From: Pseudonocardiaceae bacterium
GTDB taxonomy: Bacteria > Actinomycetota > Actinomycetes > Mycobacteriales > Pseudonocardiaceae
NCBI GenBank assembly: GCA_009377865.1
Contig: WHTH01000002.1
Span: 1 to 64,000 of the forward strand
Length of the DNA stretch: 64,000 nucleotides
Reading direction: 5' to 3'
Positions 1,672 through 19,925 of the stretch are shown in pieces. The first letter of the stretch is position 1, and every line of letters begins with the position of its first letter. Below the pieces are notes generated by a model. The model was given only the letters and a program-made list of their open reading frames with translations. It searched no databases and was not told the origin of the DNA. A program made the translations under genes and the position numbers.

Positions 1672-2235
1672 TCAGCTGCCCTCGGAGTCGCTGTCCTCGG
1701 AGTCACCGCCCTCGCGGTCGCTGTCATCGGAGTTCCTGCCGTCGGGTTCGGTCTTCTCGGGCTCATCCTCCTCGCAAGCCACACCGTCACCGTCGACGTC
1801 GAGTTCTTCCCGGTAGCCGGGATCATCCGACTCGAGCGGTGCGGCATCGGCGTCGCGGGCGGCCTCGCAGTCCTCGTACCGGACCTCGCGGGGCTCCGGT
1901 TCGTCGGCTCGCGGCGCCGGTGTGGGTCGAGGGCCCTCATTCCCGGGTGGCTCGGACGGGCCGCCGTTGCGCGGTGGTTCATCGGGTGACCCGTTGCCGG
2001 GCGGGCCCGGGGGGACTGTCGGCGGTCGCCCAGCACCGGGCGGCGGGCCAGGCGGGTTGACCGGCTTCGTGTCAGGGAGGTCCGAACCCTCGAGCACGAA
2101 AACCTGCACCACGCCGCCATCGACCTCGAGGTGGGCGGCCGAGGCGGGCAGTGTGGCCGACGCGGTGAGCAGCGCGGCAGCTGCCGTGGCGAGCAAGCCG
2201 GCAGACCAGGCGGCCACGGTGCGGTGGCGGCTCAT
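1672..2235 (-). CDS. Secreted proline-rich protein with an Excalibur calcium-binding domain
   Basis: This 187-residue protein has an N-terminal signal peptide (hydrophobic to about residue 33, ASA cleavage-like site). A long Pro/Gly linker follows (about 60-115), then a YEDCEAARDA...DVDGDGVACE segment (about 119-155) that matches the Excalibur domain, in which a DxDxDG loop binds calcium and two cysteines pair. The tail is rich in Asp, Glu and Ser. Its start overlaps the end of the SipW-type peptidase gene in an ATGA arrangement, so the two are translationally coupled. It is probably a wall-associated extracellular protein exported with, or acting alongside, the preceding secretion genes. Its substrate or partner is unknown. 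Confidence 0.75.
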   Translation of the reverse strand: MSRHRTVAAWSAGLLATAAAALLTASATLPASAAHLEVDGGVVQVFVLEGSDLPDTKPVNPPGPPPGAGRPPTVPPGPPGNGSPDEPPRNGGPSEPPGNEGPRPTPAPRADEPEPREVRYEDCEAARDADAAPLESDDPGYREELDVDGDGVACEEDEPEKTEPDGRNSDDSDREGGDSEDSDSEGS

Positions 2236-3524: not shown

Positions 3525-3543
3525 TTAGCTTAGCCTAACCTGA
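3525..3543 (+). promoter_or_regulatory. DtxR/IdeR-type iron box before the glycosyltransferase operon
   Basis: The sequence TTAGCTTAGCCTAACCTGA matches the established 19-base DtxR/IdeR consensus TTAGGTTAGGCTAACCTAA at 16 of 19 positions. It ends 12 bases before the GTG start at 3556. A regulator bound here would cover the region just upstream of a -10-like element, a classical position for iron-dependent repression. Confidence 0.8.
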
Positions 3544-3549
3544 TAGTGT
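3544..3549 (+). promoter_or_regulatory. Possible -10 element for a leaderless transcript
   Basis: TAGTGT fits the actinobacterial TANNNT -10 pattern and sits six bases before the GTG start at 3556. No Shine-Dalgarno sequence precedes the GTG (only GCGCG), so transcription probably begins at or next to the start codon. This is inference from spacing. Confidence 0.4.
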
Positions 3550-3555
3550 CGCGCG

Positions 3556-4476
3556 GTGTTCACTCTTTCGGTCGTCGTGCCGGCGACCAACCGGCCGCCG
3601 ACCCTCCCGCAGTGCACGACCGCGATCGGACGGTCCGCAGCGCGGGCCGAGGTCGTCATCGTCGAGCACCCGGCCCACCTCTCGGCGTCGGCCGCCCGCA
3701 ACGCGGGCGCCCGGCGCGCCACCGGCGACGTGCTGGTGTTCGTCGACGCCGATGTCGAGGTCCATCCCGACGCGCTGACCCGGATCCGGGAGGCCTTCGC
3801 CGCGCGGCCGGGGCTGACCGCGGTCTTCGGGTCCTACGACGACGCCCCGTCCGCCGCCGGCGTCGTCTCGGCCTTCCGCAACCTGCTGCACCATCATGTC
3901 CACCAGAACGCGGCCGGGTCCGCCGAGACCTTCTGGTCGGGACTGGGTGCCGTGCGCCGGGACGCGTTCCTGGCCGTGGGCGGCTTCGACGGTGACCGCT
4001 TCCCGCACCCGTCGGTCGAGGACATCGACCTGGGCGCCCGCCTGCTCGCACGGGGCGCGCGGATCGTTTGCGACCCCGCGATCCAGGGCACTCATCTCAA
4101 GGCGTGGACGGTGCGGAACATGCTGTTCACCGACTTCGCCCGCCGCGGCGTGCCCTGGGTGGCGATGCAGCTGCGGTCGGGCCGGTCCTCCACCGCCCTG
4201 AACCTCGGCTGGCGGCACCGGGGCAGCGCCGCCGCCTGCGCCGTGGGCCTCGTCGCCCTGCTCGCCGGGCGGCCGGCCATCGCCGTCGGACCGGTGCTGG
4301 CGCTGCTGGCCCTCAACCACGACTTCTACACCCTGCTGGCGCGCAGGCGCGGCCCCCGTGAGGCGGCCCTCGGGGTGGCGTTGCACGCACTGCACCACCT
4401 GACGGCGGTGGCGTCCGTACCGGCCGGCGTGCTGGCCTACGCGGGCGAGCGCAGCCGAGCGGCGGTCACCCGATGA
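3556..4476 (+). CDS. Family 2 glycosyltransferase
   Basis: This encodes 306 residues. A GT-A fold starts with LSVVVPATNRP at the N-terminus, has a DxD-type metal/nucleotide-sugar site (VDADVEV, about residues 63-69) and a later ED pair (SVEDIDLG, about 155-156) as expected for the catalytic base region. Hydrophobic segments between about 217 and 265 probably tether it to the membrane, as in transferases that use polyprenyl-linked acceptors. It is the first gene of a three-gene operon, its stop overlaps the next start (ATGA), and an iron box lies directly upstream. Donor and acceptor cannot be read from the sequence. A mycofactocin MftF role was considered and rejected because no mycofactocin genes are present. 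Confidence 0.85.
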   Translation: MFTLSVVVPATNRPPTLPQCTTAIGRSAARAEVVIVEHPAHLSASAARNAGARRATGDVLVFVDADVEVHPDALTRIREAFAARPGLTAVFGSYDDAPSAAGVVSAFRNLLHHHVHQNAAGSAETFWSGLGAVRRDAFLAVGGFDGDRFPHPSVEDIDLGARLLARGARIVCDPAIQGTHLKAWTVRNMLFTDFARRGVPWVAMQLRSGRSSTALNLGWRHRGSAAACAVGLVALLAGRPAIAVGPVLALLALNHDFYTLLARRRGPREAALGVALHALHHLTAVASVPAGVLAYAGERSRAAVTR

Positions 4477-5408
4477 CACCGGACGCCGAGGTGCGCATCG
4501 GGCTGGTCGGCTGCGGCCGGCTCGCGGAGTTCGGCTACGTCCCGGCACTACGGGCGGCGCGTGGCGTCCGCCTGGTCGCCGTGGCCGAGCCCGACCCCGC
4601 GCGGCGACGGCATGTCGCCGAGCTCGCGGGCGGCGTGCCCGCGTTCCCCGACGCCGCCGCGCTGCTCGGCGGACCCGAGGTCGACGGGCTCGTGCTGGCC
4701 ACCCCAGCCCCGGCCCACCTGCCCGACGCGCGCACGGCGGCCGCAGCGGACATCGCCGTCCTGGTCGAGAAGCCGCCCGCGGTCGACGGCGGCGCGGCCG
4801 CGGAGCTGGCGGCGCAGACCCCGGCGCCGTGGATCGGCTTCAACCGCCGGTTCTCCGAGGGGATCGCAGCGCTGCGGGAGGCGACACCGGCCCGCGCCGA
4901 GGTCGACGTCCTGCTCGAGTTCGGCTACCGCCGGAGCGGGTGGGGCGCTCACGCGGTCACCGACGACGCCCTGCTCGATCTGGGCCCGCACCTGATCGAC
5001 CTCGCCCGGTGGATCACCCGCGGCGAGGTGACCGAGGTCCAGCGGGCCTCGGTGACCCCGCAGCGGGCGGAGTTCGACCTGGTCCTGGGGCCGGCCAGGG
5101 TGCGGATCCGGTGCGCCACGAATCGGCCGCACCACGAGCGGCTGACGGTCGCGCACCGGCGCGGCGGCGTCATCGGCCAGCGCCACGAGGGGGGCCTCGT
5201 GGCGGCGGTGCGTGGGCGCCTCGCGCCTCGCCCGGGGCCGCACCCGCTCGTCGCCTCGCTGACCGCACAGGTCGAGTCGTTCGCCCACGCGCTGCGCGGC
5301 GCACCCGCACCCACACTCGGGCGCGCCGAGGACGGGGTCGCGGTGATGCGAACCATCGACGCGGTGCGAAGCTGCGCCGCCCCCGACAGGCGACCCGTCG
5401 CCCGCTGA
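4473..5408 (+). CDS. Gfo/Idh/MocA-family oxidoreductase
   Basis: This 311-residue protein opens with a Rossmann dinucleotide-binding motif (IGLVGCGRLAE, about 9-19) and has the family's EKPP loop at about 99-102, where the lysine normally contacts substrate. The C-terminal half has the alpha/beta sheet part, including DLGPHLIDLARW, a usual Gfo/Idh/MocA signature. Such enzymes oxidise or reduce sugar hydroxyls, often on nucleotide sugars, using NAD(P). Its start overlaps the glycosyltransferase stop, so it probably modifies the sugar used by that operon. The exact reaction is unknown. Confidence 0.85.
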   Translation: MTPDAEVRIGLVGCGRLAEFGYVPALRAARGVRLVAVAEPDPARRRHVAELAGGVPAFPDAAALLGGPEVDGLVLATPAPAHLPDARTAAAADIAVLVEKPPAVDGGAAAELAAQTPAPWIGFNRRFSEGIAALREATPARAEVDVLLEFGYRRSGWGAHAVTDDALLDLGPHLIDLARWITRGEVTEVQRASVTPQRAEFDLVLGPARVRIRCATNRPHHERLTVAHRRGGVIGQRHEGGLVAAVRGRLAPRPGPHPLVASLTAQVESFAHALRGAPAPTLGRAEDGVAVMRTIDAVRSCAAPDRRPVAR

Positions 5409-5439
5409 AGACCCGCACCCCCGACCGGAAGGACCCGAC

Positions 5440-6945
5440 GTGCTTGCGGTACTGCAGTTCGACTCCCCGAGCCTGGCCGTGCTCGACCGGATGCTCGCCG
5501 CCGGGCGGCTGCCCACCTTGGCGCGACTGCGCGAACGCGGGACGTGGCACGAGCTCGACACCCCGGCCACGCACTTCGCGGCCGGCGCGTTCCACACGCT
5601 CTACAGCGGCACGGAACTGGCCGACCACGGGCTCTTCTACCCGTTCCAGTGGTCGGCGGCCGACCAGCGGGTGCGCTACACCACCGCGTTCGAGGCGCCG
5701 CCGCCGGTCTGGGAGCGGCCGGGCGGGCACACCCTGGCCATCGACCCATACGAGGGCCGGGTACCACTGCGGCCACCGACCGGGACGGTCGTCAGTGGTT
5801 GGCAGTTCACCGACCGGGTCGTGCTGCAACCCTGGTCGTCGCCGCGGCGCATGCGGACGCGCCTGGAGCACCTCTACGGGACCGCCGCCGCGGTGGAGGA
5901 GGTGTTCGGGCGCAGCTCCCCCCGCGACCTGCTGCGGCTGCGCCGGGACCTGCTGGCGGCGTCGCGCCGGGTCGCGGACGCCGCCACCCTGCTGATGGCC
6001 ACGGAGCGGTTCGACCTGACGTGGTTGACCTTCAGCGCGGGCCACGTCGCCGGGCACCAGTTCTGGGACCTGAGCCAGGTCGACGGTGCCGGCGGCCTCG
6101 ACCCGGACGTCCGCCACGTCCTGTCCGGGGCGCTGGAGGAGGTCTACCAGAGCGTCGACGCGGGAATCGACCGCGTGCTGGAGGCGCTGCCCGACGGGAC
6201 GGACGTGATCGTCACCTCCCCGGTCGGGATGGACGTCAACACCAGCCGCGCCGACCTGTTGCCCGAGATGCTCGACGCCGTGCTGCACGGCGGAGTCCGG
6301 CGCGACGCCGACTCGGGGTCGGGGTCGGTGTGGAAGCTGCGTGCCGCGCTGCCGACCGGCCTGCGGGCCAGGGTCGCGTCCGCGCTTCCCGACCGCGTCG
6401 CGCTGGCCTTGACGGAGCGCCTCGAGCTGCGGGGCCAGGACTGGGCCGCGACCAGGGCCTTCGCCCAGCCCGCCGACAACCAGGGCTACATCCGGCTCAA
6501 CCTCGACGGCCGGGAGCGGGACGGGATCGTCGAGCCGGGTGACGCCGAGGCGCTGATGGACGAGATCGCGGCCGGGCTGGCCACCTTCCACGACCCCGAC
6601 GGCACGCCCTCGGTCAAGTCCGTCGAGCGGGTGCTCGACACGTTCGGCTCCGGCATCCACTCCGAACAGCTGCCGGACCTCGTCGTGCGCTGGAGCGAGC
6701 GCGAGGCGAGCACCCTCGACCACGTCCGCTCCGACCGGTTCGGCACGGTGGCGCGCAGGGGCGGAGGCAGCGGGCGCTCCGGCAACCACACCGCGGGCGG
6801 CGCATGGGCACTGGTGGTGCCGGGCGCGTCACGGCCGCGCCCGACGAGCCGCCCGCCACGGCTGGTCGACATCGCGGCCACGGCGGCGACGCTGGCCGGG
6901 ATGGACCCGGCCGGGTTGCCGGGACAGCCGCTGCTGGAGCGTTAG
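5440..6945 (+). CDS. Alkaline-phosphatase-superfamily phosphodiesterase
   Basis: This encodes 501 residues from a GTG at 5440 with AAGGA six bases upstream. The N-terminus (VLQFDSPSLAVLDRM, then LPTLARLRERG and TLYSGTELADHG) matches the type I phosphodiesterase/nucleotide pyrophosphatase branch of the alkaline phosphatase superfamily, where the early Asp and a Thr/Ser in the second block serve metal binding and catalysis. The GHVAGHQFWDL segment supplies histidines expected for the metal centre. No signal peptide is seen, so it is probably cytosolic. It ends the iron-box operon, overlapping four bases with the convergent glycosyltransferase gene. It may cleave a nucleotide-sugar or lipid-phosphate intermediate of glycan synthesis (inference). 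Confidence 0.75.
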   Translation: MLAVLQFDSPSLAVLDRMLAAGRLPTLARLRERGTWHELDTPATHFAAGAFHTLYSGTELADHGLFYPFQWSAADQRVRYTTAFEAPPPVWERPGGHTLAIDPYEGRVPLRPPTGTVVSGWQFTDRVVLQPWSSPRRMRTRLEHLYGTAAAVEEVFGRSSPRDLLRLRRDLLAASRRVADAATLLMATERFDLTWLTFSAGHVAGHQFWDLSQVDGAGGLDPDVRHVLSGALEEVYQSVDAGIDRVLEALPDGTDVIVTSPVGMDVNTSRADLLPEMLDAVLHGGVRRDADSGSGSVWKLRAALPTGLRARVASALPDRVALALTERLELRGQDWAATRAFAQPADNQGYIRLNLDGRERDGIVEPGDAEALMDEIAAGLATFHDPDGTPSVKSVERVLDTFGSGIHSEQLPDLVVRWSEREASTLDHVRSDRFGTVARRGGGSGRSGNHTAGGAWALVVPGASRPRPTSRPPRLVDIAATAATLAGMDPAGLPGQPLLER

Positions 6946-7802
6946 CGGTCGCCGCCGCTGCCGCGACGGGCCGCGACGGCTTCGAGCGTCATGCCCAGCG
7001 CCGTGGCGAGCTGGGCGAGGCCGACCAGGGCGCCGGCTCGCGGGCCGTGCGCCCACCCGCGGCGCAGCAGGCCGGTGTAGAAGCGGGGTGTCTCCAGCCG
7101 CAGCAGGGTGCCGTGGTCGGCGCGGAACCGGTAGCCGCCACGCCCGTAGCGCAGCTGCTGGCGCCAGAAACCGGCCGCGTCGAGCTCCTGATGATGCAGC
7201 ACCAGCGCCGCGGGCTCGAAGGCGAGCTCGTGCCCGGCGCCGGTCAGCCGCGCGCACCAGTCCCGGTCCTCCCCGGCCGCCAGCGGGTAACGCTCGTCGA
7301 ACGGCAGGGCCCGGCACACCTCGGCGCGGCAGCCGATGTTGCAGGTCGGGGCGAAGCGCATCCGCCCGGTCGGCGGGTCAATCGTCGCCTCGGCCAGGTG
7401 GCTCGCGATCGCCTGCGACGCGGTGGCCAGCACGGACTGCGGCGTGCCGTTGCGGGTCGGGCCCGCAGCCGCGGCCGGGCCCGCGTCGATCCGGCCGGCC
7501 AGCGCCGCCGCCCACCCCGGGACGGGTGCGCAGTCGTCGTCGGTGAAGCAGACCACCGGTGCCCGCGCCTCGCGAACGCCGGCGTTACGAGCCGCGGCCG
7601 GGCCGCGGCCCTCCCCGCGCACCAGGCGGGCCCCCGGGACGGCGGCGACCGTCCCGGCCACGGCGCGCGCGTCCCGCGATGCGTCGTCGACGACGACGAT
7701 CTCCAGCTCCGGGGCGGTCTGGCGTCGAAGCGCGGCCAGGCAGGTGGCCAGCCTGCCGGGCCGGTCCCTGGTGGGCACGACGACCGAGATACGCGAGTTC
7801 AT
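6942..7802 (-). CDS. Family 2 glycosyltransferase
   Basis: The start is the ATG at 7802, which overlaps the stop of the upstream flippase gene (ATGA), so the much longer open frame reaching 8666 is not used. The 286-residue product has the GT-A nucleotide-binding start ISVVVPTRDRP, a TDDD acidic site at about 87-90 and a GEDRDWCARL block typical of the acceptor-side ED motif. It ends with weakly hydrophobic helices. It is the third gene of an operon with an Emb-like arabinosyltransferase and a flippase. This suggests that it adds a sugar to the lipid-linked or surface glycan made there. Confidence 0.85.
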   Translation of the reverse strand: MNSRISVVVPTRDRPGRLATCLAALRRQTAPELEIVVVDDASRDARAVAGTVAAVPGARLVRGEGRGPAAARNAGVREARAPVVCFTDDDCAPVPGWAAALAGRIDAGPAAAAGPTRNGTPQSVLATASQAIASHLAEATIDPPTGRMRFAPTCNIGCRAEVCRALPFDERYPLAAGEDRDWCARLTGAGHELAFEPAALVLHHQELDAAGFWRQQLRYGRGGYRFRADHGTLLRLETPRFYTGLLRRGWAHGPRAGALVGLAQLATALGMTLEAVAARRGSGGDR

Positions 7803-9133
7803 GACAACGCTCCCTGAGCCAGCGCCGACAGTGCCACCACCGACAGGGCACCGCCGAACGAGGTGAACGCGATCCGCCCGCCGATCGCGCCGGGCAGCAT
7901 CCTGATCGCCACCAGCGCGGACGTCCCGGTCGCCGCGAGCGCGGCGCAGCTGGCGCCGACTGCACCGGCCACCGGGACGACCCAGGCCGACGCCCCGGCG
8001 AATACCGCCGCACCGGCCAGCCCGGCGTAGAGGCTGACCTCGGGTCGCATGCGCAGCGCGGCTGCCTGGATGGCCAGCGCGTGCAGCGGTGCGAGCACCA
8101 CGATCGCCAGTGCCGGGCCGAACGCCGTGACGGCTCCGGTGTAGGCGGCGCCGAACACCAGCGGCACCGCCGTGTCGAGCACGGCGGCAGTGGCGACCGC
8201 GGACGGGACCACGGCGAGCAGCACCCAGCCCGCGAGCCACCGCAGCGCGGGTTCGGCGCCGTCGTCGGGCCGCTGCGCCAGCATCGGCAGCGAGACCGTG
8301 AACAGCTGCACGACCGCGTACACGGCGGCCAGCGCGACGCCGAGGGCCAGCGCGGCGAACCCGGTCTCGACGGCGTCGCCGGCCACCAGGGCCACGACGA
8401 CGACCCCGCCGCGCTGCGCGAGCTGGGTCAGTGCGCCACCCGTCGCCTGCATGACGGCGAACCGTCCGGCTCCGGCCGGTAGCGGCACGGCGGCGACCCG
8501 GCCGACGAGCAGGGGGCCCACGGCCGCCACCGCCAGGACGAAGCCGGCGGCTGCCGCGACGACGATGGCGGCCACGGCGCCGGTCGGGCCCGCCGTCGCG
8601 TACAGCACGAGCACGGCGGCGACGAGCACGGCGTTCTGCACCGGGTAGCGCGCGGACCAGCCCCACGCCCGGCCCAGCCCGAGGTCGGCCTGCAGCGCCA
8701 GCGTCGTCGCGACGTTGAGTGCGAGCGCGATCACCACCAGCGCGGTCGGCAGTGGCGGGAACCGCTCCGGGTTCCAGACCGCCAGCACGGTCGCGACGGC
8801 GGCCAGCGCCGCCAGCACCATCGCGCGGTTGCGCCCCAGCCGCAGTGACAGCGCCCTGGCGAGAGCGGCCCGCTCGCCGGGCACGGCGGCGGGCACGTAG
8901 CGGGCCAGCAGGGTGGCCCCGCCCACTGTCATCGCCAGCGCCCCGATCATGACCACCGTCAGCGCGACGGCGAATCCACCGTAGTCGGCCGGCCCGAGGA
9001 CCCGTGGCACGACCGTGGCCAGCAGGACCAGGGTGACCGCCTCGGCCACCTTGCCGCCGAGGCCGGCCAGCACCGGCGTCCGCAGCCGGTCGCCCCGCAC
9101 CTCGACCGTCGCGGCCTGCGAGGGCTCAACCAT
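7799..9133 (-). CDS. Wzx-like polysaccharide flippase (MOP superfamily)
   Basis: This 444-residue membrane protein has about twelve hydrophobic helices. The first block (GKVAEAVTLVLLATVVPRVLGPADYGGFA) is the usual start of Wzx/MurJ-like members of the MOP superfamily, where LGPADYG is a common motif. Such proteins move undecaprenyl- or decaprenyl-linked glycans across the membrane. Its start overlaps the end of the arabinosyltransferase gene by eight bases and its stop overlaps the following glycosyltransferase start. The operon therefore contains a polymerising transferase, a flippase and a cytosolic transferase, which is a near-complete surface glycan pathway. Confidence 0.85.
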   Translation of the reverse strand: MVEPSQAATVEVRGDRLRTPVLAGLGGKVAEAVTLVLLATVVPRVLGPADYGGFAVALTVVMIGALAMTVGGATLLARYVPAAVPGERAALARALSLRLGRNRAMVLAALAAVATVLAVWNPERFPPLPTALVVIALALNVATTLALQADLGLGRAWGWSARYPVQNAVLVAAVLVLYATAGPTGAVAAIVVAAAAGFVLAVAAVGPLLVGRVAAVPLPAGAGRFAVMQATGGALTQLAQRGGVVVVALVAGDAVETGFAALALGVALAAVYAVVQLFTVSLPMLAQRPDDGAEPALRWLAGWVLLAVVPSAVATAAVLDTAVPLVFGAAYTGAVTAFGPALAIVVLAPLHALAIQAAALRMRPEVSLYAGLAGAAVFAGASAWVVPVAGAVGASCAALAATGTSALVAIRMLPGAIGGRIAFTSFGGALSVVALSALAQGALS

Positions 9134-12100
9134 TCCATGCCTCCCATCCGGGCACGGTGCGCCGGTCGACGGTGAGGGTGTAGGCGTCCCGGCGCAGGTC
9201 GGTGCCGAACTCGTACACCTCGACGTTCGGGTCGCTGGGTCCGACCGTGGCCAGCCGCAGCACCGACTGGGTGCGCGTCACCTGCCCGAACACCCCACCC
9301 CGGCGGGGCTGCCAGGCGATGCCGTCGAGCCCCGCCGTGCTCCTCGCCCACAGCACCGCGTACGCCGGGGGCTCGGTGATGCCGTCGACGACCCGGGGCT
9401 GGCGCAGGCACGGGTGGGCGAAGGCCAGCTGCCAGCCCAATGCCACCGGCGCCCCGTCGGGGAGGAACTCGTCCAGCGCGACCGGGTGAGCCGTGGCCGG
9501 GGCGGTGAACGCCAGCCAACCGTGCCCCGCCCCGGTGGCGTCCATCGCCTCCAGCCGGACGACGTCGGCCCCGCCTGCGGGGGTGAGCACCAACGTCCGC
9601 CACGACGGGCCGGGTGCGGTGTCGGTGAGCGACTCGGTGGCCGTCGGGACCACCGTGTCCCCGAAGCGCCGCCCGTAGACCGCGGTGAGCCCGTTGCCGC
9701 CGGTCAGCCTGCCCGCGGCCAGCACCGTGACCGCCGCCCCGCCCGCGGGATCCGGGGGCAGGGCGTACCACCCGGTGCTCATCCGCCCGGTGGTCAGGTT
9801 GGCCGACCGGCCGTCGGGGCCGGCGACCAGGCTGCCCCACACCTGCCCGGCCACGCCGCCCTGCGGTGCGTTGGGGGCGTGGTAGCCGTCGCCCGCGACG
9901 AATCCCCCGGGGGGCGGCGGTGGTGGCAGGCCCGCCGCGGGGGGCAGCGGCTCGGCGCCGCGCGGGTCGAGCACCCGCACGGCGGCGGTGGTGCCGCACC
10001 CGGTCCCGGTCGGATCGGCGAGCCCCTGCGCCCACACCGACCCGGGAGGTGTGCCCCGCGCAGCGGCCGACCCGAAGGCACCGACCAGATAGCCGCTGGT
10101 CGCGACGAGGGAGGCGACCACGACGACCGGGACCGCGCGCAGCGCGGCGAACCGCGGTTGTCGCTGCCACCCGGTCCAGCGGCCCCACACTGCGAACCCG
10201 ACCGCCACCACGAGGACCACCATCCCCCACAACACCACGCTGTCGAAGGTCACGGGCCCCACCGACGGCGGCCGGCCGGCAGCCCAGACGCCGTCGAGCC
10301 AGGCGTAGGCCCAGTCGTTCGGGCCGTGCCACGACAGGGCCAGCACCACGGTGAACGACCCGGCGACCGCGACCACGAGCCCGGCAGGCGGCCTCGACCC
10401 GTCCAGCACCCGCCCCGTCAGCGGCACCGCCGCGACCAGCGCGAGGGCGAGGAACGCCGACCCGACCCCGGCGAGCGTCCCGAAGTGGTGGGTCCACTTC
10501 GACGGGGTGAACGCGAGCGCGAGAAACCCCAGCGCGGTGGCGGAACCGGCCAGCCACAACGGCGCAGGCACCGGCACCCGGCGCAGCCGCGCGGCCACGG
10601 CGAGCAGGGCGAAGGCGCCGAGCGCGACGAGGCAGGCGAGCACCGCGGCCCGCTTGGCGAAGTTGCCCATCGGGGCCTGGCTGAGCAGGTAGCCGTAGCG
10701 TTCGATCTCCTCGGCCCAGCCGTCCTGTGGCACCACCGACAGGAACATCGCCTGACCGCGCTGGAAGTCGCGCAGCGCGTTGTCGGCGAACGCGACCAGC
10801 GGTGCGACCATGCCCCCCGAGCCCACGGCGAGCGCGCGCAGCGCGGTGGTCGCAGCGGCACCGGGCACCCGGACCAGCGGCCACAGCACCGGCAGCCCCG
10901 CGAGCAGCACGCCGAGCAGGATGAAACCGGTGGTGTGCGCCGTGAAGCCCAGACCCGCCACCGCGCACGCCAGCCAGCCCAGCACGAGCCGTCGCCGTCG
11001 CCCGGCGGCCAGCACCGCGAGCAGCGTCGCGGCGCCGCAGGCGGCCACCACGGGCTCCGGCCGCACCCCCGTGTTCTGGGGCAGCCACCAGGCCAGGAAC
11101 ACCGCGGCGAGCACCACCGGCGCGGTGACCCGCATCCCCCGCGCGGCGGCTGCCGGCTCCGCGGTTGCGGCCGCGACGAAGCGGCGCAGCAGCACCCACG
11201 TGAGCAGGCCGAACACCAGGGCGGGGACGCGTTGTGCGACCGGCGCCTCGCCCGCGAACTCCTGCCACCAGCCCAGCGCCCGGTAGGGCCAGGTGAACGG
11301 GGTGAAGCTCTGGTCATAGAACTGGTAGTAGTTGCCGACCTCCCCGGAGATCGTCGCGTTGCGGGCCTGCGCGGTGAAGTAGCCGTCGTCGTCGGTGGCC
11401 GGGGCGATGACCGTCCAGACCACCAGCACCGCGGGCACCACCACGTCCACGGCTCGCGGCCACCGGAGCCGGCGGAGCCATCGCAGCCGCCGGTTGCGGC
11501 GGGCCCGGGGCACCGCGCGGTCGGCGAGCGCGAGCAGCCCCGCCGTGGTCGGCAGGGCGACCAGCAGCACCCAGAGCAGCGCCGACTTCGACGGCGCCGG
11601 GGCGCTGCTGAACTCGTCGTCGACGCGCAGCTCGACCGACAGCTCGCCCGCGATCCCGGGCGGGGGGTCGCGCAGCGAGGTCGCCAGCATGTCGACGTCG
11701 GGAAGCTGCTCGGTAGCGGTGCGGACGATCTCCCGGCCGTCGCGGCTGATCACGAGCTCGGCGTTGCCCGGCCCGGCGAAGGCGTCGAGGTCGGGCGCCG
11801 GCTGCCCGGAAGCGCCCGCCGGACCGGCGTAGCTCGGCAGCCCGTCGCTGTGCCCGCTGATCCGGTACCCGCACGGCCCGGCCGGGAGTGGCTCGTCGAG
11901 CAGCACCCGGTCCAGCCCTCGGACCCGCACCCGGTCCTGCGCCGCAGTCACGACCATCCCGATGGCGCCGGTTTCCGGCGTGCCCGGCACCGCCGTCGAG
12001 ACGACGACACCTTCCGGCGTCGCCTGGGCGGCCCTGGCGACGTCGCAGTTGAACCGCACGTCGAGCGCGAGCGGCCGGTAGGCGGTCAGCGTGAGCAGCG

Positions 12101-12284
12101 TGGACTCGGGGTTTGCGGGATCGGCGGGCCAGCGCACCGTCGGCTCGTTGACCGACACCGGGGCGAACGGCAGCAGCACCGCGCACACCACGGCGACGAG
12201 CCCGGCCAGCGCGGCGGGCAGCGCCGCGCACCACCGCCGACCGGGCAGCCGTTCCCGGTCGACGGTCGCGCCGCTGTCGTTCAC
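9126..12284 (-). CDS. EmbABC-type arabinosyltransferase (GT-C)
   Basis: This 1052-residue protein is close to the usual length of mycobacterial Emb proteins. It has an N-terminal helix, an extracytoplasmic region rich in strands (about 45-230) and a membrane core starting near 235. In the first GT-C loop the sequence ATDDDGYF (about 296-303) carries the acidic pair needed for catalysis in EmbA/B/C. A large C-terminal extracellular domain (after about 700) resembles the carbohydrate-binding module of Emb proteins. It uses decaprenyl-phosphoryl arabinose in known relatives. It begins with GTG at 12284 without a good ribosome site, in a divergent promoter region with an iron box. Iron control of an Emb-like gene would be unusual and makes it probably distinct from housekeeping EmbA/B/C. 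Confidence 0.85.
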   Translation of the reverse strand: MNDSGATVDRERLPGRRWCAALPAALAGLVAVVCAVLLPFAPVSVNEPTVRWPADPANPESTLLTLTAYRPLALDVRFNCDVARAAQATPEGVVVSTAVPGTPETGAIGMVVTAAQDRVRVRGLDRVLLDEPLPAGPCGYRISGHSDGLPSYAGPAGASGQPAPDLDAFAGPGNAELVISRDGREIVRTATEQLPDVDMLATSLRDPPPGIAGELSVELRVDDEFSSAPAPSKSALLWVLLVALPTTAGLLALADRAVPRARRNRRLRWLRRLRWPRAVDVVVPAVLVVWTVIAPATDDDGYFTAQARNATISGEVGNYYQFYDQSFTPFTWPYRALGWWQEFAGEAPVAQRVPALVFGLLTWVLLRRFVAAATAEPAAAARGMRVTAPVVLAAVFLAWWLPQNTGVRPEPVVAACGAATLLAVLAAGRRRRLVLGWLACAVAGLGFTAHTTGFILLGVLLAGLPVLWPLVRVPGAAATTALRALAVGSGGMVAPLVAFADNALRDFQRGQAMFLSVVPQDGWAEEIERYGYLLSQAPMGNFAKRAAVLACLVALGAFALLAVAARLRRVPVPAPLWLAGSATALGFLALAFTPSKWTHHFGTLAGVGSAFLALALVAAVPLTGRVLDGSRPPAGLVVAVAGSFTVVLALSWHGPNDWAYAWLDGVWAAGRPPSVGPVTFDSVVLWGMVVLVVAVGFAVWGRWTGWQRQPRFAALRAVPVVVVASLVATSGYLVGAFGSAAARGTPPGSVWAQGLADPTGTGCGTTAAVRVLDPRGAEPLPPAAGLPPPPPPGGFVAGDGYHAPNAPQGGVAGQVWGSLVAGPDGRSANLTTGRMSTGWYALPPDPAGGAAVTVLAAGRLTGGNGLTAVYGRRFGDTVVPTATESLTDTAPGPSWRTLVLTPAGGADVVRLEAMDATGAGHGWLAFTAPATAHPVALDEFLPDGAPVALGWQLAFAHPCLRQPRVVDGITEPPAYAVLWARSTAGLDGIAWQPRRGGVFGQVTRTQSVLRLATVGPSDPNVEVYEFGTDLRRDAYTLTVDRRTVPGWEAWNG

Positions 12285-12349
12285 CTATTGATCACGATCG
12301 ACCACGCTATGGGGCCGGGAAACACTATCGCTGCCCCTCTTTCGGGTGA

Positions 12350-12368
12350 TATACCTAGGCTAACCTTA
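12350..12368 (+). promoter_or_regulatory. Iron-box-like site in the divergent glycan promoter
   Basis: An uninterrupted 11-base core TAGGCTAACCT (12356-12366) is identical to positions 7-17 of the DtxR/IdeR consensus. Over 19 positions the match is 13. The site lies within the 119-base gap between the arabinosyltransferase start (12284, minus) and the fused decarboxylase/mutase-like gene start (12404, plus), so one site could control both operons. Confidence 0.65.
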
Positions 12369-12403
12369 TTTAATCAGGTCAACGGCCGGTAAAAGGATTG
12401 CCC

Positions 12404-14806
12404 ATGCGAGTGCGCAGGCCACGTGCTGTCGTCACCGGCGGCGCAGGATTCCTGGGATCCCATCTGTGCGAGCGGCTGTTGCGCGACGGCTACACCGTGC
12501 TGTGCCTCGACGACCTCAGCACCGGCGCGGCGGACAACGTCGCCCACCTGGCGGAGGTCGGGCCGTTCCGGCTCGTCCGCGCCGACGTCACCGACTTCGT
12601 GCACGTCGTCGGGGCGGTCGACGCGGTGCTGCACTTCGCCTCACCCGCCTCTCCCATCGACTACCTGCGCATGCCGATCGAGACGCTCAAGGTCGGCTCG
12701 ATCGGCACCCTGCACACGCTGGGCCTGGCCAAGGAGAAGGGGGCGCGCTACCTGCTCGCGTCGACCTCGGAGGCCTACGGTGACCCGCAGGTCCACCCGC
12801 AGCCGGAGAGCTACTGGGGCCACGTCAACCCGGTCGGGCCGCGCGGGGTCTACGACGAGGCGAAGCGGTTCGGCGAGGCCATGACCATGGCCTACCGGCG
12901 CTCGCAACGGGTCGACACGGCGATCGTGCGGATCTTCAACACCCACGGACCGCGGATGCGCCCCGCCGACGGCCGGGCGGTGCCGACGTTCATCCGGCAG
13001 GCACTGCGCGGCGAACCGCTGACCGTCGCAGGCGACGGCAGCCAGACCCGCTCGATCCAGTACGTCGACGACCTCGTCGAGGGGTGCGTGCGCCTGCTGC
13101 ACTCGTCGCACGCGGGCCCGGTCAACATCGGCAACCCGCGAGAGGTCTCGATCGGCGCGCTCGCCGTGCTGATCCGCGACCTCGCCGGCTCGGCGAGCGA
13201 GATCCACCACGTACCGCGCCCGGAGGACGACCCCACGGTACGGCAGCCGGACGTCACGCTGGCCCGCGAGCTGCTCGGCTGGAACCCCGCGGTGGACCTC
13301 GAGGACGGGCTGCGCCGGACCGTCGCGTGGTTCCGGGACAACCTCGCCCCGGCCGCCCCCGAGGCGGTCATCATCGGGGCCGGGCCAGCCGGGCTGACCG
13401 CCGCCCGCGAGCTCGCCCGGCGCGACGTGATGTCGACCGTGCTGGAGGCCGACGACGTCGTCGGGGGGATCAGCCGGACCGTCGAGCGGGACGGGTGGCG
13501 GTTCGACATCGGAGGCCACCGCTTCTTCACCAAGGTGGCCAGGGTGTCGGCGTTCTGGCACGAGGTGCTGCCCGACGGGGAACTCCTGCTGCGGCCCCGC
13601 CGCAGCCGCATCCTCTACCGGGGCCGGTTCTACGACTACCCGCTGCGCCCGCTCGCAGCGCTGCGCAACCTCGGCGCGTCCGAGGCCCTCCGATGCGTGC
13701 TGTCGTACCTGCGGGCGCAAGTCTGCCCGCCCGCCGACCAGTCCCACCTGGAAGGATGGGTCGCGACCCGGTTCGGCTACCGGCTCTACCGGCACTTCTT
13801 CAAGACCTACAACGAGAAGGTCTGGGGCGTGCCCGCCACCGAGATCCAGGCCGACTGGGCCGCGCAGCGGATCAAGGACCTGTCGCTGGCCGGCGCGGTG
13901 CTCGGCACACTGCGCCGAGACGGCACGCAGATCACCTCGCTGATCGAGCAGTTCCACTACCCGCGGCTCGGGCCGGGGATGATGTGGGAACGCTGCTGCG
14001 AGCTCGTCGAGGCTGCCGGTAGCAAGGTGCACCTGGGTCATCCGGTGACCCGGGTGGAGCATGCCGGCGGGCGCGCGGTCGCCGTCGAGACCACGGTGGA
14101 CGGTGCGGTGACCCGCTTTCCGTGCACCGACGTGATCTCCTCGATGCCGCTGCCCGACCTGGTGCGGGCCATGGACCCGCAGGTGCCCCCGGCGGTGCGC
14201 GCGGCCGCCGACGGCCTCCGGTTCCGGGACTTCCTCACCGTCGCCCTGGTCGTGCCCGAGCCCGACGCCTTCGACGACAACTGGATCTACGTGCATTCCC
14301 CGGACGTGCGGCTCGGCAGGGTCCAGAACTTCGGCGCGTGGTCGGAGTCGATGGTCAAACCGGGCTGGACCTGCCTGGGCCTGGAGTACTTCGTGTTCGA
14401 GGGCGACGACCTGTGGGACCTGCCGGACGCCGAGCTCGTCGCGCTGGGCACCCGCGAGCTCGACGCCATCGGCCTGGTGAGGCGCGACGCCGTCGAGAGC
14501 GGCTACGTCGTCCGGATGCCCAAGGCCTACCCCGTCTACGATCGTGACTTCCGCAGCAACGTCGCCACGCTGCGGGAGTGGCTGGCCGTGCACGCGCGCA
14601 ACGTGCACCCTGTCGGGCGCAACGGCATGCACCGCTACAACAACCAGGACCACTCGATGCTGACCGCGATGCTCAGCGTCGAGAACGTCCTGGACGGGGC
14701 AGGCCACGACGCCTGGTCGGTGAATGTGGAGGGGGACTACCACGAGCACGCCACGGTCGGTGGCACCGGCCGCGACGCGCCGATCCTGGCGGTCAGCCGG
14801 GAGTGA
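12404..14806 (+). CDS. Fused UDP-glucuronate decarboxylase and UGM-like FAD protein
   Basis: The ATG at 12404 is chosen because AAGGA ends six bases before it; a TTG at 12398 is too close. The 800-residue frame is unbroken. Residues 1 to about 315 are an extended SDR with [10 protein letters not shown] (11-20), STSEAYGD and the catalytic YDEAK (Tyr150, Lys154), closely resembling UDP-glucuronic acid decarboxylases that make UDP-xylose. From about residue 320 a second Rossmann fold begins ([13 protein letters not shown]), continuing as an FAD-dependent protein of the UDP-galactopyranose mutase/HemY-like type ([18 protein letters not shown]). The fusion suggests conversion of a UDP-pentose made by the first half, perhaps to a furanose; this is inference. 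It lies beside an Emb-like gene. Confidence 0.8.
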
Positions 14807-16463
14807 CGCGGTCGGCTGCCGAGCCGGGACCGCGCCGGCTCCACAGCCGGATCAGGATCACGACGGGCAGCAGGCTGACCGTCACGATGAGCAGCGCGGG
14901 CAGCGCCGCTGTGTCGAACCGGGAGTCCTTGGTGGCCTCCCATGCCATGATCGCGAGCGTGTCGCCGCCCAGCGGCCGCAGCAGGGCGGTGGCCGGGAGC
15001 TCCTTCATGACCTCCACCATCACCAGCAGCGCGGCGGTGAGGACGCCCGGCCACAGCAGCGGGGCGTGAACCTCGGCGAGCACCCGAGCCCGGTCCGCCC
15101 CCAACGCCCGCGCGGCATCGTCCAGGTTGGGGTGGATCCGCGCCATGCGCGCCTCCATCGCGAAGTACGCCTGGGCGTGGAACCGGACGACGTAGGCGCA
15201 CACCAGGCCGAGGATGGTGCCGGTGAACAGCAGCCCGATGCTCGCGCCTGCGAGCGCCTCGGCCCCGTCGATCAGTCGGCGGTCCAGCCACACCAGCGGC
15301 ACGTAGATCGCGACGGCGATCACCGTACCGGGCACCGCGTAGCCCACCGATGCCAGCCGGGCCGCTGCCGCGCCGATCCGGGACGGCCGGACCCGCTGGC
15401 CGTAGACGATCACCGTCGAGGTGATCACCGCTATGACGGCGGAGGCGGCGGCGAGCAGCAGCGTGTTGAACACGGCCGCGCCCAGCCCGGCACCCACCCG
15501 GTCCGCGATGACGCTCTCCACCGACCAGGCCAGCAACTGGGCCACCGGCACGGCGAACACCAGGGCCAGCAGCAGGCACGGCACCGCGGTCGCGCCCGCC
15601 GCCCGCCACCCGTGCAGCCGGCGCGGGACGACAGCGTCACCGCGGGACAGCGCCTGGTGGAACCGGGCCCGGCCGCGCAGCAGCCGCTCAGCCACGACCA
15701 TGATCAACGCGAGGCCGACCAGCACCGTGGCGAGCTGCAGCGCGGCCGCCTGGTCGAACGCGCCGTACCAGACCCGGTAGATCGCGTCGGTCATGGCCTG
15801 GTACCCGAGCAGGCTCACGGCCCCGAAATCGGCCAGCGCCTCCATCACGGCCAGCGCCGCCCCGGCGGCCAGCGCCGGGCGCGCGAGCGGCAGCGCCACG
15901 GTGCGCACCGCCCGGCCGTAGCTGCATCCGAGGTTGCGCGCCGCCTCCATGGACTGCCGGGACTGACCCAGGAACGCGCTGCGGCCCAGCACGTAGACAT
16001 AGGGATAGAGCACGGCGGTGAGCACGCCGATCGCGCCTGCCGGGCCGCGCAGCCCCGGTAACTGCAGGCCGGTGCCGAACAGGCTGCTCTGCAGCGGGTC
16101 CGCGTAACCGAACTGCCCCACCAGCACGAACACCAGGACGTAGCCGGGCATCGCCAGCGGCAGCACGAGCGCCCAGTCCAGCCAGCGGCGTCCGGGGAAG
16201 TCGTAGAAGGACACGAGGACGGCGAGCCCGCCGCCGATGACCAGGGTGCCGGCGGCGACTCCGACGCCGAGCAGCACGCTGCGCCCCAGCGCCTGCGGCA
16301 GCAGCGTCCGGGCGATCTGGCCGAACGCCTCGCCGCCGATCACGAAGCTCAGCGGCAACGCGACCAGCGGTCCGGCCACGACCAGGGCCGTGCACACCCC
16401 CAGGACCGTCCAGCCCGGTGGCCGCCGGCGGCGCGCGGTCCGACCGGCGACGCTCAGCGCCAC
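14793..16463 (-). CDS. fbpB: Ferric iron ABC transporter permease (FbpB-type)
   Basis: The open frame extends far upstream, but the GTG at 16463, which overlaps the end of fbpA by ten bases, is the sensible start and gives 556 residues. The product has about twelve membrane helices in two halves, each with a binding-protein-dependent permease EAA-type loop ([13 protein letters not shown] in the first, [14 protein letters not shown] in the second). This double-permease form is typical of FbpB/SfuB iron(III) importers. It is translationally coupled to the ferric-binding protein gene and lies opposite the ATPase gene. Its last bases overlap the convergent end of the fused decarboxylase gene by 14 bases. 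Confidence 0.85.
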
Positions 16464-17569
16464 CCGACCTCCAGCATCAGGGCGACCGCCTCGTCGAGCA
16501 GCGGCCCGGCCTCCTCCACGGCGATCGGGTCGATGGTGACGTCGGCCCAGTCCCGGATGTGCGGGGCCGGCGGCACCTGCGGGTTCGCCGCGAACTCCCC
16601 GCGCGAGACGACCTGCTGCTGTGCTGGCGGGGAGGTGAGCCACTCCATCAGCGCCACCGCGGTCGGCGCGGCGTCCGAGCCGCGCACCACACCGACCCCG
16701 GAGACATTGGCGTGCGCCCCGGCACCGTCCTGGTTCGGCCAGGCGGGAGCGACCGGGAAGCCGGGGTCCTCGTCCAGCGCCCGTGCCAGGTAGTAGTGGT
16801 TCGACAGGCCGACGTCGCAGTCGCCGGCGGCCATCACCGCGAGCATCTCGCCGTCCGAGCCCAGGATCTCGGGGTCGTTGGCCATCCAGGAGCGCAGCAG
16901 CGCTTCGGTTGCCTCCCGGCCCCGCTTGGCGATCATGTCGGCGACCATCGACTGGTTGTACTCGCTGTTCGAGGTCCGCAGGCAGGTCCGGTCGGCGAGC
17001 CGGGGATCGCCGAGGTCGGCGTAGCTCGTCACCGCGCCCGCAGGCACCCGCTCGGTCGACACGACCGGGATGCGCAGCCGGGTGGTCACCGCCCACCACG
17101 CACCCTGGTCGTCGTGCAGCCGCTCCGGGACCTGGGTCCGCAGCGTCTCGCTGGTGACGGGCTGCAGCAGGCCCGTCTCCTCGGCCTGCCACAGGTTGGC
17201 CAGGTCGGTGGTCACGAGCAGGTCGGCCGGGGTGTCCTCACCCTCCCGGCGCAGCCGCTCGTACAGCTCGGGCGCCGTGCCGCCGCGCAGCTCGATGTCG
17301 ACCCCGGTCGCCTCCTCGAAGTCGCGGAAGACCTGCTCGTCCCCGTAGTGCGACCGGCCGTTGTAGATCACGAGGCTGTCCGCGTACTCGATGCCGGCGG
17401 TGTTCACCTCGCGTGCAGCGCCGGTGTCGGGCGATCCGCCGGACCCGCGGGACGATCCGTCCGTGCCCCCCGTGCCGAACGCCAGCACCGCGCCGCCCAC
17501 GGCGACGACGGCGACGAGGGCGGCTGCGGCCGTCACGGCCCATCGCCGGCGAATGAGGGACGTGAGCAT
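16454..17569 (-). CDS. fbpA: Ferric-iron-binding lipoprotein-like periplasmic protein (FbpA-type)
   Basis: The ATG at 17569 has a GGGAGGT ribosome site six bases upstream and is preferred over the frame start at 17629. The 371-residue product has an N-terminal membrane/signal segment and a Gly/Ser linker. The solute-binding fold then begins near residue 55 (SLVIYNGRSHYGDEQV). The paired tyrosines in NHYYLAR (about residues 258-259) correspond to the tandem tyrosines that hold ferric iron in FbpA. Without a lipobox cysteine it may be membrane-anchored by the N-terminal helix. It is the first gene of the fbpA-fbpB operon and shares an iron-box-containing divergent promoter with fbpC. Confidence 0.85.
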   Translation of the reverse strand: MLTSLIRRRWAVTAAAALVAVVAVGGAVLAFGTGGTDGSSRGSGGSPDTGAAREVNTAGIEYADSLVIYNGRSHYGDEQVFRDFEEATGVDIELRGGTAPELYERLRREGEDTPADLLVTTDLANLWQAEETGLLQPVTSETLRTQVPERLHDDQGAWWAVTTRLRIPVVSTERVPAGAVTSYADLGDPRLADRTCLRTSNSEYNQSMVADMIAKRGREATEALLRSWMANDPEILGSDGEMLAVMAAGDCDVGLSNHYYLARALDEDPGFPVAPAWPNQDGAGAHANVSGVGVVRGSDAAPTAVALMEWLTSPPAQQQVVSRGEFAANPQVPPAPHIRDWADVTIDPIAVEEAGPLLDEAVALMLEVGWR

Positions 17570-17610
17570 GGGTTGACCTCCCGTCACGGCCGACATTCGG
17601 GCGACAGCGG

Positions 17611-17646
17611 CCTTACCCTTGCCTACCACAGGGTAGGCTTAGCTCA
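17611..17646. promoter_or_regulatory. Two overlapping iron-box-like sites between fbpA and fbpC
   Basis: Positions 17628-17646 match the DtxR/IdeR consensus at 13 of 19 positions, with TAGGCT intact, and end two bases before the fbpC start at 17649. A weaker copy on the other strand (about 17613-17631, 11 of 19) faces fbpA. The position between ferric transport genes supports iron regulation even though neither site is perfect. Confidence 0.6.
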
Positions 17647-17648
17647 CC

Positions 17649-18695
17649 ATGGATCAGGGTTGTGCGATCGTCGCCGCCGACGTCGAGAAGACGTTCGGGC
17701 GCAACCGGGCCGTGACGGGCACGACGTTGCGGGTCGGGCACGGGGAGTTCGTGGCCCTGCTGGGGCCGAGCGGGTCGGGCAAGACGACCCTGCTGCGCAT
17801 CGTCGCCGGGTTCGAGACACCCGACGCGGGCAGCGTCTGGCTGTCCGGGCGGCAGGTCGCGGGCGACGGGGTGTGGGAGGAGCCCGACCGGCGCAAGGTC
17901 GGGATGGTGTTCCAGGACGGCGCGCTGTTCCCGCACCTGTCCGTGTCCGCGAACCTCGGCTTCGCCGGGCCGCGCCCCGGTCGGGTGCAGGAGTGCCTCG
18001 AGCTGGTCGGACTCGCGGACCGTGCCGCGTCGTACCCGCACGAGCTCTCCGGTGGCGAGCGACAGCGCGTCGCGCTGGCCAGGGCGCTGGCTGCCGACCC
18101 CGACGTGGTCCTGCTCGACGAGCCGTTCGCCGCCCTGGATGAGGGGTTGCGGGTCGCGCTGCGCGACGAGGTCGCCGCGATCCTGCGAACGGCCGGTGCG
18201 AGCGCGTTGCTGGTCACCCACAACCAGCAGGAGGCGCTGTCGCTGGCCGACGCCGTGGCCGTCATGCGGGACGGGCACATCGAGCAGGTCGGCACCCCCG
18301 AGGAGGTCTACGGCCGTCCGGTGAGCCGGTGGTCCGCCGAGTTCCTGGGCGAGGCCGACGTCGTGGCCGGGACGGCCTCCGGTGGCGTGGTGGATTGCGA
18401 GCTCGGGCGGTTCCCCGCGGACTCCGCGCTGAGCGGCCGGGTCGAGGTCATCGTCCGGCCGGAGGGGCTGGCCGTCTCCTCCAACGGCGCCTCGGACGGG
18501 GCAGGCCCGCCCGGCGACGGTATCGCCGCGCGCGTCGTCGGTCGCTCCTACTTCGGTCACGACCAGCTCGTCGCGGTGCAGCTGGCCAGCGGGTTGCGGC
18601 TGCGCAGCCGGTTGTCGGGTTCGGCCGGATGGCGCCTCGGCGACCTCGTCCACATCCGGGTCACCGGCCCGGTGACCGTGCTCGACGCCGCGTAG
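17649..18695 (+). CDS. fbpC: Ferric iron ABC transporter ATPase (FbpC-type)
   Basis: This 348-residue protein has Walker A GPSGSGKTT (about 39-47), Q-loop FQDG, the signature LSGGERQRV (about 134-142), Walker B VVLLDEP and H-loop LVTHN. After the ATPase domain a TOBE-like C-terminal domain (about 240-345) is present, as in FbpC/PotA-type subunits. It energises the FbpB permease encoded on the opposite strand. No Shine-Dalgarno sequence separates the iron box from the start, so the transcript may be leaderless or nearly so. Confidence 0.85.
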   Translation: MDQGCAIVAADVEKTFGRNRAVTGTTLRVGHGEFVALLGPSGSGKTTLLRIVAGFETPDAGSVWLSGRQVAGDGVWEEPDRRKVGMVFQDGALFPHLSVSANLGFAGPRPGRVQECLELVGLADRAASYPHELSGGERQRVALARALAADPDVVLLDEPFAALDEGLRVALRDEVAAILRTAGASALLVTHNQQEALSLADAVAVMRDGHIEQVGTPEEVYGRPVSRWSAEFLGEADVVAGTASGGVVDCELGRFPADSALSGRVEVIVRPEGLAVSSNGASDGAGPPGDGIAARVVGRSYFGHDQLVAVQLASGLRLRSRLSGSAGWRLGDLVHIRVTGPVTVLDAA

Positions 18696-19848: not shown

Positions 19849-19925
19849 GGCCCGCTGCTCGGAGAGTCCCGCAGCACACCGGAGTAGCCCGCACAACGAA
19901 CGGTGGCCGTCACGCTTGCGAGGGT

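Follow-up and report, generated by a model that had tools for sequence, protein, structure and literature searches.

Predicted glycan-assembly genes and a predicted ferric importer behind IdeR-type boxes in a Pseudonocardiaceae bacterium

The iron-dependent repressors IdeR, DtxR and DmdR1 of Actinomycetota are known for their siderophore, uptake and storage targets. In the locus described here, genes with a predicted role in glycan assembly stand behind boxes of the same type, beside a predicted ferric importer. In the window, the whole 64-kb stretch of Pseudonocardiaceae DNA that was analysed, seven glycan genes and FbpABC lie side by side at positions 3556-18695, with three iron boxes at promoters. 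The initial annotation had described this grouping, and gene coordinates and domain matches agree with it; to its seven glycan genes an eighth, broken one has to be added. The features are as follows.

3525-3543, no strand: IdeR/DtxR-type box, 16-17/19, promoter of GT2a-Gfo-PDE
3556-4476, plus: GT2a, family 2 glycosyltransferase (PF00535, 52.3 bits; hydrophobic C-terminal part by eye)
4473-5408, plus: Gfo/Idh/MocA-type sugar oxidoreductase (PF01408, 54 bits; best solved relative 3m2t, 55 bits)
5440-6945, plus: PDE, type I phosphodiesterase/nucleotide pyrophosphatase-like (PF01663, 46.9 bits)
6942-7802, minus: GT2b, family 2 glycosyltransferase (PF00535, 88 bits)
7799-9133, minus: Wzx-like flippase, weak family evidence (orthologue near the PF13440 cut-off)
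9126-12284, minus: Emb-like GT-C arabinosyltransferase (PF04602, PF14896, PF17689)
12350-12373, no strand: IdeR/DtxR-type box, two overlapping 13/19 registers (12350, 12355), between Emb and UXS/UGM
12398-14806, plus: UXS/UGM-like fusion
12398-13348, plus: UDP-glucuronate decarboxylase (UDP-xylose synthase, UXS) domain of the fusion (4gll, 356 bits)
13349-14806, plus: UGM-like flavoenzyme domain of the fusion (Aspergillus fumigatus UGM, 78 bits)
14793-16454, minus: FbpB, two-domain permease, start codon uncertain (PF00528 in two stretches, 82.8 bits)
16454-17629, minus: FbpA, ferric-binding protein (7li0, 213 bits; 2pt1, 210 bits)
17628-17646, no strand: IdeR/DtxR-type box, 13/19, between the divergent FbpA and FbpC
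17649-18695, plus: FbpC, ABC ATPase (PF00005, 120 bits; PF08402)
about 18720-19850, plus: broken GT-C (ArnT-like) gene with more than one interruption of its frame; relatives carry an intact copy

Boxes were scored as matches to the 19-bp IdeR/DmdR1-type palindrome TTAGGTTAGGCTAACCTAA, and palindromes of this type stand at promoters both in the window and in relatives. Our recount returned the counts first given, 16, 13 and 13 of 19 for the boxes at 3525, 12350 and 17628; the first rises to 17 when either G or C is accepted at the centre. In dinucleotide shuffles run promoter by promoter, the 3525 box was equalled in 0/3000 cases and the p values were 0.017 for 12350 and 0.005 for 17628, and shuffled 64-kb windows held 0.35 sites of at least 13/19 each (20 shuffles), against four such places in the real window. 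A weight matrix built without the window sites, from four other sites of the same genome (in stretches L058 and L059 and two in L061, a 13/19 site in L060 being omitted), placed the three boxes as the top three of the 64 kb at 28.6, 19.6 and 18.1 bits, the next place scoring 8.2. The fourth window place of at least 13/19, at 43898, was not in the top 12 of a first matrix and scored 6.6 bits with this second one.

Across the 4.0-Mb genome, a pattern search allowing up to three mismatches returned two places, the 3525 box and one on contig C88, and none with the reversed control; a looser core pattern, with 4 forward and 6 reverse places against 4 and 1, gave no discrimination from its reversed control. 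Sites of the same kind elsewhere in this genome precede a siderophore-type binding protein gene and a pyridoxal decarboxylase gene. The genome also carries an IdeR gene (L083, positions 1210-1914, minus strand; 366 bits to 7b1v and 274 bits to 1fx7). The boxes agree with the published DmdR1-type sites in Table 1 of PMC7174319. Chance occurrence in AT-rich promoters is rejected by the promoter and window shuffles, together with permuted-motif controls in relatives.

The cluster is also present in six other Pseudonocardiaceae genomes, in none of which it lacks a box, and in four of them boxes stand at promoters matching those of the window. Counted with the window, the family loci total 17 sites over 90 kb, where permuted palindromes average 0.85 and none of 500 reaches 17. 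Separate boxes precede GT2a, Wzx, GT2b/PDE, UXS or UGM in several genomes; six of 25 hand-marked promoters are without one, including three Emb promoters (all except those of the window and of Actinomycetospora cinnamomea). Linkage to Fbp is seen in five of seven family loci, which are those whose fetched DNA extends that far, the contigs of G396 and G400 ending earlier. EfeO-type, EfeB-type and FTR1 iron-uptake genes adjoin the cluster elsewhere, with extra iron genes in two lineages. The cluster itself is sparsely distributed: PDE, taken as its marker, occurs in 9 of 390 family genomes (seven at 60% identity or more, our genome included), and a search among relatives found it in 1 of 100, our own genome, the one same-genus genome being without it.

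Of 17 stretches fetched from outside the family, 10 combine glycan genes with an Fbp-type importer, nine of the ten with a box, and one carries boxes of 15-17/19 at four promoters. In a second set of eight stretches there were 8 sites of at least 13/19 against a permutation mean of 1.82, a weaker excess (6/300 permutations reach 8), 4 of at least 14/19 against a mean of 0.19 (2/300) and 1 of at least 15/19 (4/300). Among individual stretches, L099 has Fbp-type and GT-C genes without a box, and one of the two box matches of L120 lies inside a coding gene. FbpA is close in L095, L096, L097 and L116 (66-75% identity); in the other six of the ten (L098, L099, L103, L118, L120 and L122) the match is just 25-31% identical, and ferric specificity is unsure there for that reason. 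All core genes lie inside the stretch in L095, L097 and L103 only. The PDE is again rare and patchy in two other classes (1/66 and 11/249 genomes), the 1/66 coming from a class search with the L095 protein that found its own genome only. L100 and L101 carry GT-C and UGM-like genes with neither Fbp nor boxes, so a tie between the glycan pathway and iron is not universal.

The importer has the parts of a ferric ABC system. FbpA aligns with solved Fe(3+)-binding proteins (7li0 and 2pt1) through its YY and YNQS motifs, whose tyrosines we take to be the iron ligands, and the two-domain permease and ABC ATPase are both in the locus. Import of 2-aminoethylphosphonate was considered and rejected as the main reading, the corresponding NCBIfam models scoring far below cut-off against 213 bits to an Fe(3+)-binding protein. 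The known FbpABC/FutABC importers share these three components; here, unlike in those systems, a single box separates the divergent FbpA and FbpC, and a GT-C gene comes after FbpC.

Evidence for the glycan enzymes is uneven. The UXS domain matches 4gll over residues 6-332, covering the whole domain. The UGM-like domain keeps 10 of 13 residues of what we take to be the substrate and flavin pocket of A. fumigatus UGM, including R182, R447, Y453, N457 and H63; H68 and Q107 differ from that list, and the chain used for comparison already deviates at position 207. No UDP-xylose mutase appeared among the literature matches listed. GT2a has orthologues of 71-72% identity in stretches L016 and L017, and the PDE had no relative among solved structures. 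The gene first called a Wzx-like flippase is where it was placed, but its family is weakly founded, as the protein has no Pfam match of its own and the L017 orthologue reaches 22.9 bits against the PF13440 cut-off of 23. The broken eighth gene (18.7-19.9 kb) is recognised from a three-frame translation and from two separate matches; its intact A. cinnamomea orthologue has the GT-C fold.

The Emb-like protein exceeds all cut-offs (PF04602, 230.7 bits; PF14896, 77.1; PF17689, 39.2) and scores 189 bits to EmbB. That the gene is the genome's ordinary cell-wall Emb, orthologous to EmbCAB, is rejected, as four other Emb genes of the genome are grouped on contig C59 and the cluster proteins form a separate clade: in a quick tree four of five cluster Embs branch together with 98 SH-aLRT support and do not group with the C59 proteins. 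A flagged long branch is among these four, and the fifth, from G387, was omitted as split between two stretches. The locus resembles the EmbCAB/arabinogalactan-LAM pathway in Pfam architecture and GT-C family, and differs from it in the clade of its Emb, its neighbours and the iron box in front. None of the 17 stretches examined from beyond Pseudonocardiaceae gave a match to the gene, and in the family genome G396 it lies away from the flippase. The view that this enzyme is central to the system has accordingly been given up, while the other half of that early reading, iron-box control of the importer and the glycan operons, has gained support from recurring boxes, the IdeR gene and adjoining iron-uptake genes. 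Since Emb is missing from the outside Fbp-glycan stretches, it and the UDP-xylose synthase seem to have been added at the level of the family, and the core cluster is likely older than the Emb-like gene.

Co-repression of importer and glycan genes by IdeR is well supported computationally. IdeR would likely hold off both in iron-rich cells and release both when iron runs out; because both lie behind recurring iron-repressor-type boxes, a special sugar coat at iron shortage is likely. From family membership, the UXS domain is predicted to make UDP-xylose, the UGM-like domain to reshape a nucleotide sugar, probably into a furanose, the GT2 enzymes to attach sugar to a polyprenyl carrier, which the Wzx-like protein would flip once loaded, and GT-C enzymes to lengthen the chain outside the membrane, an ArnT-like one in relatives and the Emb-like one in Pseudonocardiaceae. 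The glycan may form a low-iron surface layer that helps to collect ferric iron, or to retain it, for FbpA. In Pseudonocardiaceae, Emb and UXS look like later additions that steered the core glycan towards a pentose-rich one; the decarboxylase domain is itself clear, and a pentose-rich polymer is the putative product. We consider the account as a whole, an IdeR-controlled importer and glycan line with a low-iron surface layer and a later Emb/UXS add-on, to be probable. Only tentatively, and with some doubt, do we extend it to a mobile actinobacterial system, patchy across several classes, in which an IdeR-induced, furanose-bearing surface glycan traps extracellular Fe(3+) for FbpA and the Pseudonocardiaceae additions of an Emb-type polymerase and UDP-xylose synthase yield an iron-starvation pentan.

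It is quite possible that IdeR controls the whole cluster and the glycan nonetheless has no part in iron capture, serving as envelope remodelling or shielding at low iron (e.g., against predators, phages or desiccation). The glycan enzymes include nothing specific to metal binding, xylose is uncharged, and co-regulation by itself is no proof of co-function; yet the repeated Fbp linkage (10/17 outside stretches and 5/7 family loci reached) and the extra iron genes beside the cluster in two lineages suggest a shared task. It seems unlikely that, in place of making a polymer, the GT-C and GT2 enzymes act as glycosylating enzymes or physical partners of the iron lipoproteins (FbpA, EfeO). Precedent exists in mycobacteria, where FecB-AftB and LpqZ-AftA tie substrate-binding-type lipoproteins to GT-C arabinosyltransferases (PMC12802301). 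Those lipoproteins are orphans without transporters, whereas FbpA here has its own permease and ATPase, with shared iron boxes, and the flippase-like gene, UXS and Emb-like polymerase point to a longer product carried on a lipid.

Reading of the boxes by another DtxR-family protein, with manganese as the signal, appears very improbable: our genome does encode a second Fe_dep_repr_C protein (stretch L082), MntR-like by eye, but the boxes fit the DmdR1-type sites tabulated in PMC7174319, like sites precede the siderophore-type binding protein and pyridoxal decarboxylase genes, and the neighbours are iron genes. Least plausible is iron regulation of FbpABC alone, with the glycan genes as unrelated neighbours behind chance boxes, for although two boxes of the window score just 13/19 and some hand-marked promoters (6/25) have none, separate glycan promoters carry boxes in several genomes and exceed permuted motifs.

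Among known systems, the preferred reading, IdeR control of importer and glycan line, comes closest to the IdeR/DtxR/DmdR1 regulons, with their palindrome type, a highly similar IdeR gene and Fbp, EfeO/EfeB-type and FTR1 neighbours; the difference is that the conserved target here is a glycan assembly cluster, for which no example as an iron-regulon target appeared among the literature matches listed. Wzx-type lipid-linked glycan clusters share the GT2 enzymes, nucleotide-sugar enzymes and flippase-like protein, but here GT-C enzymes are present, no Wzy polymerase was recognised, and a ferric importer and iron boxes are joined. No iron-regulated glycan cluster with an importer was described among the open-licence matches listed.

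If the preferred reading is true, these bacteria swap their surface coat under iron starvation, with glycan assembly under the iron repressor beside a ferric importer; it would explain why GT-C, UGM-like and phosphodiesterase genes, obscure otherwise, are found travelling together, and would give an Emb-type arabinosyltransferase a place apart from ordinary cell-wall synthesis. A cultured type strain, A. cinnamomea DSM 45771, allows the claim to be tested directly. In A. cinnamomea a 15/19 box lies between the Emb-like gene and efeO-efeB-type genes, which diverge from it. The EfeO-type neighbour scores 264.7 bits with the EfeO model (cut-off 270) and 117 bits, above cut-off, with Imelysin PF09375, and the EfeB-type neighbour has Dyp peroxidase domains of 160 and 90 bits.

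The initial annotation had noted glycan genes lying together with FbpABC, a predicted ferric importer, and with three IdeR/DtxR-type boxes (19-bp palindromes, scored here as matches of 19 to the consensus). Both the genes and the boxes are present where it placed them, and the cluster has the following layout:

Within 3556-18695, + strand: GT2a (a family 2 glycosyltransferase), Gfo/Idh and PDE (the phosphodiesterase-like cluster marker)
Within 3556-18695, - strand: Emb-like enzyme, flippase-like protein and GT2b (a second family 2 glycosyltransferase)
Within 3556-18695, + strand: fusion of a UDP-xylose synthase (UXS) with a UDP-galactopyranose-mutase-like (UGM-like) flavoenzyme
Within 3556-18695, - strand: FbpA and FbpB
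Within 3556-18695, + strand: FbpC
About 18720-19850, + strand: an eighth glycan gene, ArnT-like GT-C, with a broken reading frame, downstream of FbpC

The UXS/UGM-like fusion gene and FbpB are convergent, with overlapping 3' ends. The orthologue of the eighth gene is intact in Actinomycetospora cinnamomea (L016), Pseudonocardia sp. OFTM178 (L017) and the family genomes G387 and G381. The window belongs to C113, a contig in a draft genome of 4.0 Mb (completeness 97.8%, contamination 4.5%), and the nearest named loci to the cluster are those of A. cinnamomea and a Pseudonocardia MAG, both assigned to Pseudonocardiaceae. Some 2 kb to the left of these genes (413-1357, + strand) are pieces of an apparent transposase gene with helix-turn-helix domains.

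The box positions 3525, 12350 and 17628 were borne out, each box scoring above shuffles of its own promoter (0/3000, p 0.017 and p 0.005). A weight matrix trained on relatives' sites and four other own-genome sites ranked them first to third in the 64 kb (28.6, 19.6 and 18.1 bits; fourth place 8.2), and one trained on extra-family loci and the same four sites put the same three on top (28.6, 18.0 and 15.7 bits; next 7.7), the training sites of both having themselves been picked by consensus score. The consensus agrees with the DmdR1 sites in Table 1 of PMC7174319. The genome encodes IdeR, which scores 366 bits against a solved iron repressor of the DtxR family, together with another DtxR-family member, MntR-like by eye. 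In the same genome, genes for a siderophore-type binding protein (PF01497) and for a pyridoxal decarboxylase (PF00282) also have boxes upstream, and a further box lies 340 bases upstream of a ferritin-like gene. Just two places in the genome have at most three mismatches to the consensus, 3525 and C88:11394-11412 (L058:9395); the latter lies about 330 bases upstream of a short + strand frame and 490 downstream of a glutamate-cysteine-ligase-like gene.

Within Pseudonocardiaceae, PDE was found in 9 of 390 genomes, seven of them (own included) at 60% identity or more; the remaining two matches, at 25-30%, are in genomes without the cluster. The seven cluster loci hold 17 sites of at least 13/19 in 90 kb, with at least one in every genome; 500 permuted palindromes gave a mean of 0.85 and none reached 17, the permuted half-site GTTGATGAT, drawn twice, giving 16. 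Among 25 hand-marked promoter regions, 17 carry a box of at least 13, two one of 12 and six none above 11. Boxes stand at promoters matching the window's (GT2a, Emb or UXS, Fbp) in A. cinnamomea, OFTM178, G387 and G381, and at GT2b/PDE and Wzx in G396 and G400, where contigs are cut. In A. cinnamomea a 15/19 box separates Emb from a divergent EfeO-like gene (NCBIfam EfeO 264.7 bits, cut-off 270), beyond which lies an EfeB-like Dyp-type peroxidase. The recurrence of boxes at cluster promoters across genomes makes a stronger case for the iron link than the window alone could.

Looking beyond the family, 9 of 296 genomes from across the phylum carry the ArnT-like GT-C gene (the window's own genome counts as one), and six of nine 20-kb stretches around it, from the eight other genomes, match FbpA, FbpB and FbpC. 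In another class, PDE turned up in 11 of 249 genomes, three already among the fetched stretches; four of the eight further stretches match Fbp, all four with a box. Pooled, 10 of these 17 stretches have Fbp, nine of the 10 with a box of at least 13 (the exception is L099; one of two hits in L120 falls inside FbpA), as against two of the seven without Fbp. In the first set, the six loci with Fbp hold 8 sites at ≥13 (permuted mean 1.66; 5/200 reach 8), 7 at ≥14 (0.24; 2/500 reach 7) and 6 at ≥15 (0.01; 0/200 reach 6). The second set, of eight stretches, holds 8 at ≥13 (1.82; 6/300 reach 8), 4 at ≥14 (0.19; 2/300 reach 4) and 1 at ≥15 (0.01; 4/300 reach 1).

Only L095, L097 and L103 contain the whole core inside the fetched stretch. 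L095 runs UGM-like, FbpB, FbpA, FbpC, GT-C, GT2a, Gfo, PDE, GT2b, flippase; its four promoters carry boxes of 16, 15, 16 and 17, and it lacks both Emb and UXS. In L097, FTR1, another iron permease, adjoins FbpB. FbpA is only 25-31% identical in six of the 10 Fbp stretches (L098, L099, L103, L118, L120, L122), and the importer's metal is therefore less sure there. Matches to FbpA and to GT-C in the protein database fall on equal-sized contigs, as do matches to GT-C and to the UGM-like enzyme, one such contig being labelled Acidimicrobiales; this is a pointer to linkage rather than proof. One metagenome contig size, 19176, is common to a 91%-identical FbpA, a UGM-like domain 95% identical to the window's and a 470-residue GT-C.

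The weight initially placed on the Emb-like enzyme is reduced, as Emb has no match in the 17 extra-family stretches. What is conserved is the importer together with the glycan assembly genes; the Emb-like enzyme probably joined them later. Emb adjoins the flippase in five of six family loci whose DNA extends past it, with different genes there in G396. Ten 20-kb loci of other Emb genes (nine family, one own genome) have no box of at least 13. In one stretch, L048 (G103:C272), a close Emb relative sits next to a second Emb and a flippase-looking gene (by eye), without Fbp or boxes; it is a related Emb glycan locus with no tie to iron. Among the matches listed, the open-licence literature held no description of an importer and glycan system under iron boxes.

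The UXS domain scores 356 bits to a solved UDP-glucuronate decarboxylase; the UGM-like domain scores 78 bits to A. fumigatus UGM and keeps 10 of the 13 pocket residues compared. The two matches lie side by side in different frames in A. cinnamomea and G387, and the flavoenzyme is a separate protein in L017; the window protein is thus a fusion of neighbours. Fusions of the same layout are among the matches listed for Parvularculaceae and Sphingomonas (e.g., P0156, P0166), so the pairing extends past Actinomycetota. The Emb-like protein has the complete Emb architecture and groups with three other cluster Embs in one clade (98 SH-aLRT, quick tree), and a confident structure model predicts an ArnT- and AftA/AftB/Emb-like fold for GT-C. 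Based on these UXS, UGM-like, Emb-like and GT-C assignments, we suggest a lipid-linked glycan as the product, with a pentose among its donor sugars in Pseudonocardiaceae. This glycan may be tied to iron capture.

Elsewhere in the window, the F6 small RNA of mycobacteria (RF01791, 67.3 bits) occurs at 25969-26025 on the - strand, here in a Pseudonocardiaceae genome. At 32564-33508 (+ strand) a BCCT transporter match covers the second half only (profile 255-485), about 640 bases ahead of a full-length BCCT gene on the opposite strand.
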